A DNA stretch of 33,572 nt, from NCBI GenBank assembly GCA_019313505.1, contig JAFDBA010000002.1:1-33572 (forward strand), in the 5' to 3' direction. Position 1 is the stretch's first letter, and the number at the start of each line of letters is the position of its first letter. The notes beneath the pieces are model-generated. The model worked only from the letters and a program-made list of their open reading frames with translations, did no database searches and was not told the origin of the DNA. A program made the position numbers and the translations under genes. Positions 5,046 through 10,755 of the stretch are shown piece after piece. This stretch comes from Deltaproteobacteria bacterium (GTDB taxonomy: Bacteria; Desulfobacterota; Desulfobacteria; Desulfobacterales; UBA11574).

Positions 5046-5134
5046 TTTTAGTTAGTGTATATGTAACGTTTCTGAAAATCTATACCGCTATAAGCGAACT
5101 AGTGTCCGTCCATAAATACATTTGAGCACTAAGT

Positions 5135-5280
5135 AGTTTCCAATTTATAAATGAGATATTTTTTCGATGAGCAAGGCCGCACAAGGGTTTTTGCCCGAGG
5201 CGTACTTTCTGTACGTCGAGGGCGGAAACCCGCGGAGAACGCCACTCATCGGAAAAATAGCTCATTTATGGATGGAAACT
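5135..5280. mobile_element. MITE-like hairpin element, about 146 bp, with ~36-bp terminal inverted repeats
   Basis: Left AGTTTCCAATTTATAAATGAGATATTTTTTCGATGAG; right end reverse complement AGTTTCCATCCATAAATGAGCTATTTTTCCGATGAG. The internal arms GGGTTTTTGCCC..CGTAC / GTACG..GGGCGGAAACCC continue the palindrome. Confidence 0.75.
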
Positions 5281-5301
5281 AAAATTTACAGGAGGTCCAA
5301 C

Positions 5302-5779: not shown

Positions 5780-6523
5780 TCAAATCGATTTATGTAAAAC
5801 AACATCATTCCCTGAAATTGCCAGAAGCAATCCCCTGCGATTGGTGGCTTTTGCCACACGCAACCACTTTTCTTTGCTGAGGCCCCGTGCCAATGTGGTG
5901 AGGAGCAAGCCACCTTCCAGTTCACGGCTTCCTTTCATAACCATAAACTGGCGATGGTTGGTGAAGGCAAACAAAAGATGTCCGTTGGAAAGCAAGAAAT
6001 TATAGTCACCAGGATACTGGTCGATCATTTGCGTAGTACTATAAGCCAAAGCATCGAAAAGCATATCAGGTCCTGCGGCATGCCTGTGATGATCTTCCAT
6101 ATGGTCCCGGAGGTATTCAAAAGCCCTGGCCGAGTCGCTTACGGCATCTTCAATGGCAATATCACTACTTCTGTAAGATTCAATGGCCGGCGCTTTGCCG
6201 TTATGGGCAAAAATCCAATTATGACTGCCGAATTTTAGAACGAAGGGATGGGCATGGCACTCGTCCACTAAACCGCTGGTCCGAAAACGGATATGGCAAA
6301 TGATAATTCTACTCTTTACAACACGGGCCAGTTTTTGAAAACTGTCGTGCAAGTGACCTGAATGAAAAACCTGTTCAGCCGACTTTTCAATTAAGGCATG
6401 ATTTTTACGGAAAAAACCAATGCCCCAGCCGTCCATGTTTTTTTTGGCCTGGACTGCAAACAGGGGCATCGATTTGGGGGCGGAATAATCTTTTTTGGCG
6501 GAAAGGGCAAAAAGGTCACACAT
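5780..6523 (-). CDS. Class II glutamine amidotransferase (YafJ/GATase_4-like), catalytic motifs intact
   Basis: Cys at position 2 (MCDLFALSA), DGWGIGFF, ICHIRFRTSG, HPF, IFAHNGKA, DSARAFEYL. Confidence 0.9.
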   Translation of the reverse strand: MCDLFALSAKKDYSAPKSMPLFAVQAKKNMDGWGIGFFRKNHALIEKSAEQVFHSGHLHDSFQKLARVVKSRIIICHIRFRTSGLVDECHAHPFVLKFGSHNWIFAHNGKAPAIESYRSSDIAIEDAVSDSARAFEYLRDHMEDHHRHAAGPDMLFDALAYSTTQMIDQYPGDYNFLLSNGHLLFAFTNHRQFMVMKGSRELEGGLLLTTLARGLSKEKWLRVAKATNRRGLLLAISGNDVVLHKSI

Positions 6524-6534
6524 TTATACCAGCC

Positions 6535-7275
6535 TCAAACATCTCCAGCATATAACATATCCGGTCCGGCAATCACCAAAAGCTCACCTTTGGATTGAGG
6601 ATCCGGTATTATTGGGTGCCAATCGGTGCTAATCAGCTTTTCTCTGATGGAAGTAACCAGTAGAATGTCCCCCATACTTTCAGACTCTTTGAGAACCATC
6701 AGTTGTCCAAAGTTACAAAAGGCAAAGAGAAACGATTCATTGGCCAGAAAAAAAGTGTACTCCCCGGGGTAGTCTTCAAGAAGCTCTTGGATAGCGATGC
6801 GCATGGCAATGTATACACTGATATAGGGATTTTTGCGGTTGAGCAATACTAAGTGATCTCTTAAATATTCGAAAATTCTGGCTGTATAGACATCAATTTC
6901 AAGCCGTGGTGTTCCGACGGTCTGATATTCGCGAATGTTTTCAACAACTCCTACTTGGGCAAAAAGCCAATGGTGTTCTAAAAATTCAAGCTTGAAAGGA
7001 TGGTTGTGTGCACTGTGGCGACCACCGCTTTTGGGGCAATTTAGATGTGAAATGATGACCCGGCTATCGATGACCCGGGCAAGTCTTTGGAAGCTTTCGT
7101 GTACCTGATTTCGCGTAAACACCTGTTCGGATGATTTTTCCACCAAAGCCTGATCTTCGCGAAAAAAACCGATGCCCCAGCCGCTCATGTTTTTCTTACC
7201 CTTTTCCGCAAAGATGGGCAAGTATTTTTGGGGCGTATAGTTATATCCGGCCGAGATGGCTAAGATGTCACACAT
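6535..7275 (-). CDS. Class II glutamine amidotransferase-like paralog with degenerate glutaminase motifs
   Basis: ATG 7275 with GGGAGGG upstream (ORF track start 7308 is probably too long). MCDILAISA, SGWGIGFFREDQALVEKSSEQVF, ISHLNCPKSGG, LFAQVGVV align with the neighbour but differ at key residues. Confidence 0.88.
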   Translation of the reverse strand: MCDILAISAGYNYTPQKYLPIFAEKGKKNMSGWGIGFFREDQALVEKSSEQVFTRNQVHESFQRLARVIDSRVIISHLNCPKSGGRHSAHNHPFKLEFLEHHWLFAQVGVVENIREYQTVGTPRLEIDVYTARIFEYLRDHLVLLNRKNPYISVYIAMRIAIQELLEDYPGEYTFFLANESFLFAFCNFGQLMVLKESESMGDILLVTSIREKLISTDWHPIIPDPQSKGELLVIAGPDMLYAGDV

Positions 7276-7306: not shown

Positions 7307-7344
7307 ATTGTTTAATTCAATTATTTTGATATCAATTAAACAAT
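7307..7344. terminator. AT-rich perfect 11-bp hairpin overlapping the amidoligase stop codon (possible attenuator or processing site)
   Basis: ATTGTTTAATT (7307-7317) and AATTAAACAAT (7334-7344). Confidence 0.4.
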
Positions 7345-8306
7345 TTTATATGTTCTACTGACTGATCTGCTTTAGTTGGCGCCTGCTTGATACGCTCCTT
7401 ATAGCCGTACTCTGTATAAATCTCGTAGATGGTTTTCAGCCACTTGTTCGCTTCGGGATAGTAATAGATTTCCGGAACATAACCCTGGCTCAATTCAACA
7501 ATAAACTGGGTAAAGATGATCCATTGCATGGCTCCATCAATATCATGCAACACAGACGAGTGATATCGAAATTCAATGGTGGAGCGATACCAGTATGAGT
7601 GCAGATTCAAGCCGTGATAGCGGGTCTTATCATAACGTGAATTCACACCCCCATTTGCGTCGTAACGGTTTTTCAGTGAATACCAAAGTTCTTTAATGTG
7701 GCAATTACCGTCACCAACATTACCTTCGCAAACATCCAGAAAGGCTTTGACGTCAATTTCCATAGGGCGACAGGTTGCGACGTTTTTGCGATCTCCCGGA
7801 ATAAGCAGATAAAAAAGATCTTCATAGTGGTGAACGATGCGTACAAGCTGCTGGAGTTCTTTACAGGTGTAAACTGCCGGGTCAACACCGTGATGAACAT
7901 GCATGCCGCAACTTGCATCGATATCAATTCCTTCAATAGCATTGAGAAATCGGAAAGCGTTGAAGACTTGCACCAGTCCTTCCATGCCGCTTAAGATCGG
8001 GCTGATCAGTTCAACACCACATTTGGTGTGTCCTTTGCCTCTGACGGAAGAATCTCGCTCAAAGTGCCACAAGTCGCGACTGGCGCCAAGGACCAGGTTG
8101 TAATCCTTGTAAAGATCTGTAATGTGGCGCCCGTCTTTAGCACGGGATGAAATGCAGTAGGGCTTGATGATACTATTGTCCAATGGTGTTATCACATAGT
8201 TCAGGCCGAAAAATTCGATCTCCACCCCAAAGGTGCGATCGGTAAAGTTTTGCAACATGGGGTACTTGTTCTTGATCTCTGTCACAAAATGATCAGATAC
8301 AGTCAT
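7332..8306 (-). CDS. Putative amidoligase (GS/COOH-NH2 ligase fold, Amidoligase_2-like)
   Basis: FGVEIEFFG (ExE metal site), HFERDSSVRGKGHTKCGVELISPILSGMEGL, DASCGMHVHHG, STIEFRYHSSVLHDIDGAMQWIIFTQFIV. Confidence 0.88.
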   Translation of the reverse strand: MTVSDHFVTEIKNKYPMLQNFTDRTFGVEIEFFGLNYVITPLDNSIIKPYCISSRAKDGRHITDLYKDYNLVLGASRDLWHFERDSSVRGKGHTKCGVELISPILSGMEGLVQVFNAFRFLNAIEGIDIDASCGMHVHHGVDPAVYTCKELQQLVRIVHHYEDLFYLLIPGDRKNVATCRPMEIDVKAFLDVCEGNVGDGNCHIKELWYSLKNRYDANGGVNSRYDKTRYHGLNLHSYWYRSTIEFRYHSSVLHDIDGAMQWIIFTQFIVELSQGYVPEIYYYPEANKWLKTIYEIYTEYGYKERIKQAPTKADQSVEHIKLFN

Positions 8307-8315
8307 GTTAGTTCC

Positions 8316-10346
8316 TTAGCTATTCTCCCGTTCAATAATTCTAGCATCTGCCACCAATATGCCTTCAGCATAGGCGAAGACCGGGTTAAGATCGATTTCA
8401 ACAATCTCCGGATGGTTTTCGGCCATTTTGGCCACCGCAAGAATGCAGTCTGCAAGTGCCTGTTCATCCACTGCCGGTCCGCCGCGATAACCGGCAATAA
8501 GCCCATAGCCTTTTATTTCTCGTATCATAGTCAGAGCCTCATCTTTGGTCAAAGGAAAAAGCCTGAGGCTCACATCTTGAAAGATCTCTACCATAATGCC
8601 ACCAAGCCCAAAGAGGATAACCGGGCCGAACTGCGGGTCACGATTCATTCCCACGATAACCTCCAGGCCGGGAGGTGCCATCTTACTCACTAATACGCCA
8701 TCCATCCGGGCTTCGGGACTACTGAGCTTCACAGCTGACAGCAACTCGTTGTGAGCTTTTTTAACCGCTTCAGCAGAATCCAAGTTTAATTGTACCCCCC
8801 CCACATCACTTTTATGCAGGATATCAGGGGAGCTGATTTTAAGAGCCACCGGAAATCCTTGCTCCTGAGCAATCTGAGCAGCAGCAGTTGGGCTATCCGC
8901 CAGGGCAAAGTCTGTACAGGAAAGTCCTTGTTCAGCAACCCGTGCAAATGCTTGGTGAAGCGGCAATTGACGACCGATCACAGGAACAGTTAGCGTGGGT
9001 TTCTGTGGCACGGCCAGCGTTTTACGTTCAAGTACCTGGGCCAGGGCTTTTATCCCGCGTTCGGGGGTAGGGAAAACCGGAATTCCTTTAAGGTGCATGA
9101 GTTCACTTTCGTGACGTTCGATATCGGCCCCTCCATAAAAGATAATCAGCTCATTGGCATCAGGAGTTACTATGCTGGAGGCATCTTCCACCGGATCACC
9201 AAAAATAACGCCGAGAGTGTCGTAATATTTCCTGGTTGCCTTAATAACATCGTCAAACATCTGGGCAGTGCCATCACCGGTAAGATCAATAGGATTAGAC
9301 TTTATGGCATGGGCTGGAATAAGCGGCGTGATCGCCTCCACCGCCTCTTGCGGCAGGGTAGACACATCAAGGCCTTCCTGTTCAGCCTGATCCGTTGCAA
9401 GAATGGCGGCACCTCCGGATGTGGTTATAAAAAGAATGCGATTGCCTTTCGGTGGTTTCAGATAAGCCAGGGCCTTGGCGTAGTCATAAAATTCCTCTGC
9501 TGTGTAGGCCCTGCAAATGTTATATTTTGTAAAGAGGGCCTCATAGATGGCATCAGCACCGGCCAGAGCCTTGGTGTGAGACTCGGCCGCCACTTTTCCT
9601 TTGGGCGTACGGCCGGACTTGAGAACCACCAGCGGTTTTTTTAGCTGTTTCACCGATTTGATAAACTGCTCCGGGCGTTTTATCCCTTCAATGTAAGCAG
9701 CAATCACATCAGTGTTTTCATCCTGATTGAAATAGGCAATTAGATCCGCCTCATCCACGTCAGCCCTGTTGCCCATACTGACAAAACTGGAGGTTCCCAG
9801 CTTATCCTCGGATAACCAGTCCATCATTGCGGCGCCTACCGTACCGCTCTGGGAAATGAGCGCGATCTTGCCCTGGCAGGTAAGCAGCGGCCAGGATGCA
9901 CACAGAGGGTGATGGGGATTGTTTACACCCTGGCAGTTGGGCCCGATAATGCGAATGCCGAATTTTTGCGCCGCTTCAACCACCTGCTGCTGTAGCTTTT
10001 CGCCTTGGTCATCCGCCTCGGCAAAACCACCGGTAATAATAATTGCGCCTTTGACACCCTTTTCGCCGCACTCCTGCACGGCCTGGGGCACGAATCGAGC
10101 CGGTATGATAATAACAGCCAGGTCTACAGCTTCTGCAACCTCCTTTACGCTCTTGTGACAGGGAAGATCGAGAATAACGTCGGCCTTGGGATTGATGGGG
10201 TAAACAGCTCCCTTAAAGCCGCCGTCTATGACGTTTTTTAAAATTTCATGGCCCATTTTGTCAGGGCTGGCTGAAGCCCCGATAACTGCTACACTTTTAG
10301 GTCTTAAGATAGCATCTAACCGGCTTACGAAGTCTTTTTCCGCCAT
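8316..10346 (-). CDS. NDP-forming acetyl/acyl-CoA synthetase (fused alpha-beta, CoA-binding plus ATP-grasp)
   Basis: ATG 10346 with AGGAGG (track start 10469 too long). ILRPKSVAVIGASASPDKMGHEIL, GPNCQGVNNP, SQSGTVGAAMMDW, AESHTKALAGADAIYEALF (phospho-His region), ATP-grasp PVALKISSPDILHKSDVGGVQLNL, EVIVGMNRDPQFGPVILFGLGGI. Confidence 0.95.
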   Translation of the reverse strand: MAEKDFVSRLDAILRPKSVAVIGASASPDKMGHEILKNVIDGGFKGAVYPINPKADVILDLPCHKSVKEVAEAVDLAVIIIPARFVPQAVQECGEKGVKGAIIITGGFAEADDQGEKLQQQVVEAAQKFGIRIIGPNCQGVNNPHHPLCASWPLLTCQGKIALISQSGTVGAAMMDWLSEDKLGTSSFVSMGNRADVDEADLIAYFNQDENTDVIAAYIEGIKRPEQFIKSVKQLKKPLVVLKSGRTPKGKVAAESHTKALAGADAIYEALFTKYNICRAYTAEEFYDYAKALAYLKPPKGNRILFITTSGGAAILATDQAEQEGLDVSTLPQEAVEAITPLIPAHAIKSNPIDLTGDGTAQMFDDVIKATRKYYDTLGVIFGDPVEDASSIVTPDANELIIFYGGADIERHESELMHLKGIPVFPTPERGIKALAQVLERKTLAVPQKPTLTVPVIGRQLPLHQAFARVAEQGLSCTDFALADSPTAAAQIAQEQGFPVALKISSPDILHKSDVGGVQLNLDSAEAVKKAHNELLSAVKLSSPEARMDGVLVSKMAPPGLEVIVGMNRDPQFGPVILFGLGGIMVEIFQDVSLRLFPLTKDEALTMIREIKGYGLIAGYRGGPAVDEQALADCILAVAKMAENHPEIVEIDLNPVFAYAEGILVADARIIERENS

Positions 10347-10356
10347 GGCCCGCCTC

Positions 10357-10755
10357 CTAATTCCCTGCCTTTTTTGCCATGTTGCTGTTGAATTTTTCAG
10401 CGTTGATAATAAATCGATAGTGGGTGGCTTCACCGATTTTGTCAACTTCATCGAACCCTTCGACTTCAAAAGCCAGTTTGGGACCGTCCGCCTTAGTCAA
10501 TTTAGCGGTGAAACGCACCTTCATTCCCAAGGGGGTGGCAGCCATGTGTTTGAATGTCATTCCGGTTCCAACGGTTTGCTCTCCTTCGCCAAGGTGAGAA
10601 AGGACCAAGTCTGCACAAACCTCTTCAATATGCCCCACCATGGCTCGTGTTGCATATACATTGGGCACATGGGGATAGACTTTTTGTGCCGACATTTCCT
10701 CCGTTGTTTCCCGTTCCATTTGATGAGTCATGCCAACCTTTAGTGCTTCAGTCAT
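10357..10755 (-). CDS. FlK-like hotdog thioesterase
   Basis: ATG 10755 with GGAGGAAAA upstream. VYATRAMVGHIEEVCADLV and FKHMAATPLGMKVRFTAKL resemble fluoroacetyl-CoA thioesterase family motifs, retaining the Thr, Glu and His positions. Confidence 0.85.
   Translation of the reverse strand: MTEALKVGMTHQMERETTEEMSAQKVYPHVPNVYATRAMVGHIEEVCADLVLSHLGEGEQTVGTGMTFKHMAATPLGMKVRFTAKLTKADGPKLAFEVEGFDEVDKIGEATHYRFIINAEKFNSNMAKKAGN

Follow-up and report, generated by a model that had tools for sequence, protein, structure and literature searches.

Amidoligase_2 enzymes are found in phages and bacteria, and modules that place such an enzyme (PF12224) beside a glutamine amidotransferase (GATase) were predicted by Iyer et al. 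(2009), as related in the papers that cite this work. Phage modules, e.g., those of phiEco32 and PSA-HP1, contain the same amidoligase family next to a class II GATase as the locus described here, and Arthrobacter phage Ottawa carries one amidoligase/GATase pair with intact Cys2, Arg, and Asn-Gly motifs. However, the three phage loci inspected contain one GATase or a gamma-glutamyl cyclotransferase, whereas here a second, degenerate GATase, termed GATb, is added, which makes the locus a variant of a known module. Searches of phages and plasmids with GATb returned only distant YafJ-type proteins, at 22–31% identity.

In class II amidotransferases, an Arg binds the carboxylate of glutamine, an Asn-Gly pair forms the oxyanion hole, and an Asp binds the alpha-amine. 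YafJ-like class II GATases (PF13230; structure 1TE5) and EgtC are the best matches of GATb in sequence and fold; they have the same length, MC(D/E) N-terminus, and GWG motif, and the profile match extends over most of the protein. Unlike them, GATb has no Asn or Asp in the glutamine site and, in most orthologues, no Arg; it possesses a cysteine at position 80 and scores far below the cut-off of the EgtC equivalog (TIGR03442, 218.65 bits), with 22.0 bits compared with 41.4 bits for its neighbour GATa, which does not reach this value either.

The window, i.e., the whole stretch of 33,572 nucleotides that was analysed, encodes on its minus strand and in order of transcription an ADP-forming acyl-CoA ligase recognized by Pfam and NCBIfam matches (8316..10469), an Amidoligase_2 protein (7332..8306), GATb (6535..7275), and GATa (5780..6523). 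The amidoligase, a glutamine-synthetase-like carboxylate-amine ligase, scores 103 bits against PF12224 (cut-off 22) and conserves the motifs FGVEIE, CGxHVHHG, RYHGLNLHS, and EFRY, the glutamine-synthetase-like set being intact. GATa, a class II GATase of 247 residues, has a complete set of catalytic and binding residues, and the window thereby holds the two elements of a module, a PF12224 ligase with intact motifs and an adjacent, catalytically complete GATase. Against PF13230 (cut-off 23 bits), GATa scores 94.8 and GATb 54.8 bits, and the two proteins are 41% identical over 243 residues (E = 5e-68), with 11 bases between the end of GATb and the start of GATa. The GATb reading frame (246 residues, a GATase_4 homologue) runs from MCD at 7275 to a stop codon that ends at position 6535; although another ATG lies upstream, at 7308, GGGAGGG directly precedes the MCD start. 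In Ntn enzymes, removal of Met1 exposes the N-terminal Cys2 and, with this start, the same processing would expose Cys2 in GATb. Elsewhere in the window, between an alpha/beta hydrolase gene and the start of a thioesterase, a hairpin-forming element (5100–5281) with imperfect inverted arms of 34 nt (82%) and 18 nt (89%) lengthens the listed thioesterase reading frame; it could represent a small mobile repeat.

Roles were assigned to R79, N108-G109, and D130 by alignment to 1te5, EgtC, and PurF-type enzymes and from what is established for class II enzymes. Orthologues of GATb came from families f1, f79, f132, f139, and f155 and from two named Deltaproteobacteria MAGs; a scan of contigs added just two more. 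A first set comprised up to 25 GATb and 21–23 GATa sequences informative per site, and a later set, gathered after the pattern had been defined, added 11 GATb and 10 GATa, which repeat the pattern without exception and bring the totals to 36 and 31, respectively. The substitutions relative to GATa that a sequence-only reading of this DNA had listed are all present. Moreover, the alignment of both groups of orthologues bears out the view that glutamine recognition has been selectively lost, in a conserved manner, in one copy of the tandem. GATa keeps C2, R79, N108, G109, and D130 in all 31 copies spanning these sites, whereas in GATb the oxyanion-hole Asn108 is absent from 36 of 36 sequences (Val in the window, codon 6952..6954, minus strand; mostly Val or Ile, but also Leu, Thr, Arg, Lys, or Ser), as is the alpha-amino-binding Asp130 (Tyr in the window, 6886..6888, minus; mostly Tyr, Phe, or Leu, but also Ala, Asn, Ser, or Met). 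The carboxylate-binding Arg79 is replaced by Asn, Ser, or Thr in 23 of the 36, including the window (Asn, 7039..7041, minus), and retained in 13, all from family f79; in the first set alone, it was lost in 19 sequences and kept in six of that family. The loss of Arg79 is therefore lineage-specific. Catalytic motifs had been described as lost, and this holds for positions 108 and 130 throughout and for position 79 in most orthologues, but not for the change of Asp31 to Ser, which was rejected as a catalytic loss because position 31 is not diagnostic: it is mostly Asn and sometimes Asp in GATb, and His in the GATa of family f79. The retention of Cys2 (7270..7272, minus), also noted in the sequence-only reading, extends to all 36 GATb and every GATa, and His77 and Gly109, the oxyanion-hole partner of position 108, are likewise kept in all 36. 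Thus, GATb qualifies as a GATase_4 protein by homology and Cys2, but not by the oxyanion Asn-Gly pair or by the Arg and Asp that bind glutamine.

Further differences had not been noticed in the sequence-only reading. Among 71 columns invariant in GATa, only seven are lost in every GATb, including N108, D130, and two positions of the glutamine loop, D87 (6263–6265 in GATa, minus strand) and C89 (6257–6259, minus). The same loop contains Cys80 of GATb (7036..7038, minus), next to position 79, which is present in 36 of 36 GATb and occupied by Phe, Leu, or Tyr in GATa. In genome G083, two reading frames (L040:10-758) together make up GATa, owing to either a frameshift or an assembly error.

The idea that GATb is decaying, or is an artefact of sequencing, has nothing in its favour beyond the loss of motifs and is refuted by conservation, as the reading frame is intact in 36 orthologues from five families and the two named MAGs and dN/dS is about 0.12. 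In comparisons of close orthologues, GATb has a median dN/dS of 0.116 and GATa one of 0.118 (Nei–Gojobori; median dS exceeds 1, so that absolute values are rough), and GATb is under strong purifying selection, equal to that on GATa. GATb is a real and conserved protein. In the tree, 25 GATb fall on one side of a branch with support of 99/99, and both copies occur in all five families and both MAGs, which implies either an early duplication, relative to these families, or a spread of the two copies as a pair. Because family f79 keeps Arg79 and yet lacks Asn108 and Asp130, the simplest order of events would be that Asn108 and Asp130 were lost first and Arg79 later, in the other lineage, although a regain of Arg would be an alternative.

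Purifying selection indicates that GATb is in use, and the absence of residues that a glutaminase needs suggests that its use is not that of a glutaminase. Orthologues with intact Arg and Asn-Gly motifs, which the sequence-only reading had named as evidence against itself, were found in part, since family f79 carries the Arg, but the Asn occurs in none. A glutaminase in which other residues compensate for the missing ones could draw on the persistence of Cys2 and Gly109 and on Arg79 in family f79; nevertheless, not one orthologue has either Asn108 or Asp130, neither of which GATa ever loses, and this explanation is therefore highly improbable. From the substitutions, GATb is very likely not a second glutaminase. 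The earlier label of a pseudo-enzyme agrees with the loss of N108 and D130, but is perhaps too strong for a protein that never varies at Cys2, His77, and Gly109 and has acquired another invariant cysteine.

These retained residues bear on the rival explanation with most support, which is possible, albeit doubtful: GATb could be a working Ntn enzyme whose substrate has changed, in which Cys2 acts as the nucleophile of a pocket that no longer takes the gamma-glutamyl group, and would hydrolyze or transfer a different acyl or amide, perhaps the product of the amidoligase. The invariance of Cys2, His77, and Gly109 in 36 of 36 sequences and the new Cys80 are in line with this, as are the best structure matches, 1te5 and EgtC, and the existence in the family of amidohydrolases that act on substrates other than free glutamine, EgtC among them. 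However, Asn108, which provides the side-chain half of the oxyanion hole, has no consistent substitute, and no new conserved polar residue that could bind a substrate appears at the old sites, with Asn, Ser, Thr, or Arg at position 79 and mostly Tyr, Phe, or Leu at position 130. A degenerate Ntn glutaminase domain that does not cleave glutamine is known from beta-lactam synthetase, where it forms one chain with the synthetase and no longer has the nucleophilic Cys; GATb resembles this domain in having an Ntn glutaminase fold beside a ligase, but it is a separate protein and has kept the cysteine.

Cys2 and Cys80 are the only cysteines common to all 25 GATb examined for cysteine content, and they could form a thiol switch or a metal site, in which a disulfide or a bound ligand would make the activity of GATa or of the amidoligase depend on redox conditions or metal. 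In GlmS/GFAT, the ammonia channel is gated by Trp74/Trp96 of the glutamine loop (PMC7948480, PMC7000685). Judging from the R-x-x-T-x-G spacing, position 80 would correspond to this gating residue, in which case the loop covering the active site of GATb would have been rebuilt. Nevertheless, a residue adjacent to the Arg site may face away from Cys2, and the AlphaFold2 model of GATb, built from six sequences, reaches a mean pLDDT of 57 and stays below 50 over most of the active-site half; it is unreliable at residues 1–18 and 28–95 and thus gives no Cys2–Cys80 distance. A switch of this kind is considered unlikely. A fold search with this low-confidence model ranked 1te5 and EgtC first.

GATb adjoins GATa wherever contigs span both, usually directly after the amidoligase, and the order amidoligase, GATb, GATa recurs in f1, f132, f139, f155, and the loci L031 and L032 where the contig spans the region. 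In family f79, the pair is in tandem with few bases in between and the amidoligase lies on a different contig, and genome G258 likewise has the pair apart from an amidoligase located on another contig. The pair and a close amidoligase (45–63% identity) occur in the identical 10 of 396 genomes sampled from the phylum. In the class to which f79 belongs, they are found in the identical 13 of 29 genomes, on different contigs, and at genus level the figure is 4 of 11 for both; all of these counts ignore shared ancestry. The exceptions are drafts, G149 (88% complete), which has the amidoligase without the pair, and G263 (81% complete), which has the pair without the amidoligase and a GATb cut by the contig end; moreover, all that is present in G275 is a piece of the amidoligase at the edge of a contig. 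Other genomes of the phylum carry distant amidoligases (about 33%), and no related GATase was found in the several kilobases inspected around them. The acyl-CoA ligase lies beside the amidoligase in f1, f132, L031, and L032, but was rejected as a core partner, as it was not found there in f155, f139, and f79, and it is probably no core part of the system.

Constant pairing suggests that the sister protein marks the place where GATb is used. The explanation favoured here, to which roughly an even chance is given, is that GATb is a conserved non-glutaminase paralogue that serves as the partner of GATa in one system with the amidoligase. GATa and GATb would form a heteromer in which GATa would cleave glutamine or another gamma-glutamyl amide, while GATb would stabilize, activate, or gate GATa and/or dock the amidoligase, acting through its altered glutamine loop (Cys80-Pro81) and the retained Cys2 pocket in the manner of a dead paralogue that activates its partner. 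The precedent for such activation is the prozyme of trypanosome AdoMetDC (PMC5201418), also a dismantled paralogue kept beside an active sister; nevertheless, its fold is unrelated, and heteromer formation and activation are proven for the prozyme, while for GATb they are inferred. A heteromeric or regulatory role had already been proposed from the sequence, and the tandem pairing, the operon order, and the co-occurrence with the amidoligase support it indirectly; the ammonia-channel role put forward with it is conjecture. Against GATb as a partner of GATa stand the facts that all sequences retain Cys2, His77, and Gly109, which an inert scaffold would not require, that Arg79 survives in 13 orthologues, and that a few draft genomes break the co-occurrence.

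What the amidoligase joins may be judged from its neighbours. NlpC/P60 proteins typically cut gamma-D-glutamyl bonds. In all six f79 amidoligase loci (L074–L079), the gene immediately upstream, in the same orientation, belongs to this family, the encoded proteins being 60–78% identical to the L076 copy, and this neighbour hints that the chemistry concerns gamma-glutamyl groups or the cell wall. Two relatives of the same genus have a second amidoligase copy, 68% identical to that of the window (L138:6038-7039 and L139:7532-8500), which is preceded by a PLP-dependent decarboxylase, a possible source of an amine, and by a protein of 507–514 residues without a Pfam match. The phage ligase loci, with a GATase or a cyclotransferase, have been read as genes for peptidoglycan modification or superinfection exclusion, and cell-wall gamma-glutamyl chemistry has been proposed for the modules (PMC5498523, PMC10580990, PMC11318856). 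The literature searched contained no demonstrated substrate of an Amidoligase_2 enzyme, and the leading guess, on account of the NlpC/P60 neighbour, the decarboxylase, the neighbours of phage ligases, and the published phage readings, is a gamma-glutamyl amide or else a peptide of the cell wall.

Tentatively, GATb could also found an Ntn subfamily rebuilt on Cys2 and Cys80, either as an amidase or acyltransferase that has no need of a gamma-glutamyl group or as a thiol switch acting on its paralogue, and would then add a third component to an amidoligase pathway of the cell. In a lineage where the ligase is inherited together with two GATases, one complete and the other selectively dismantled, the glutaminase function is set apart from any other role of a GATase partner, and GATa and GATb, adjacent and 41% identical, are matched natural controls for the question of why the partner exists.
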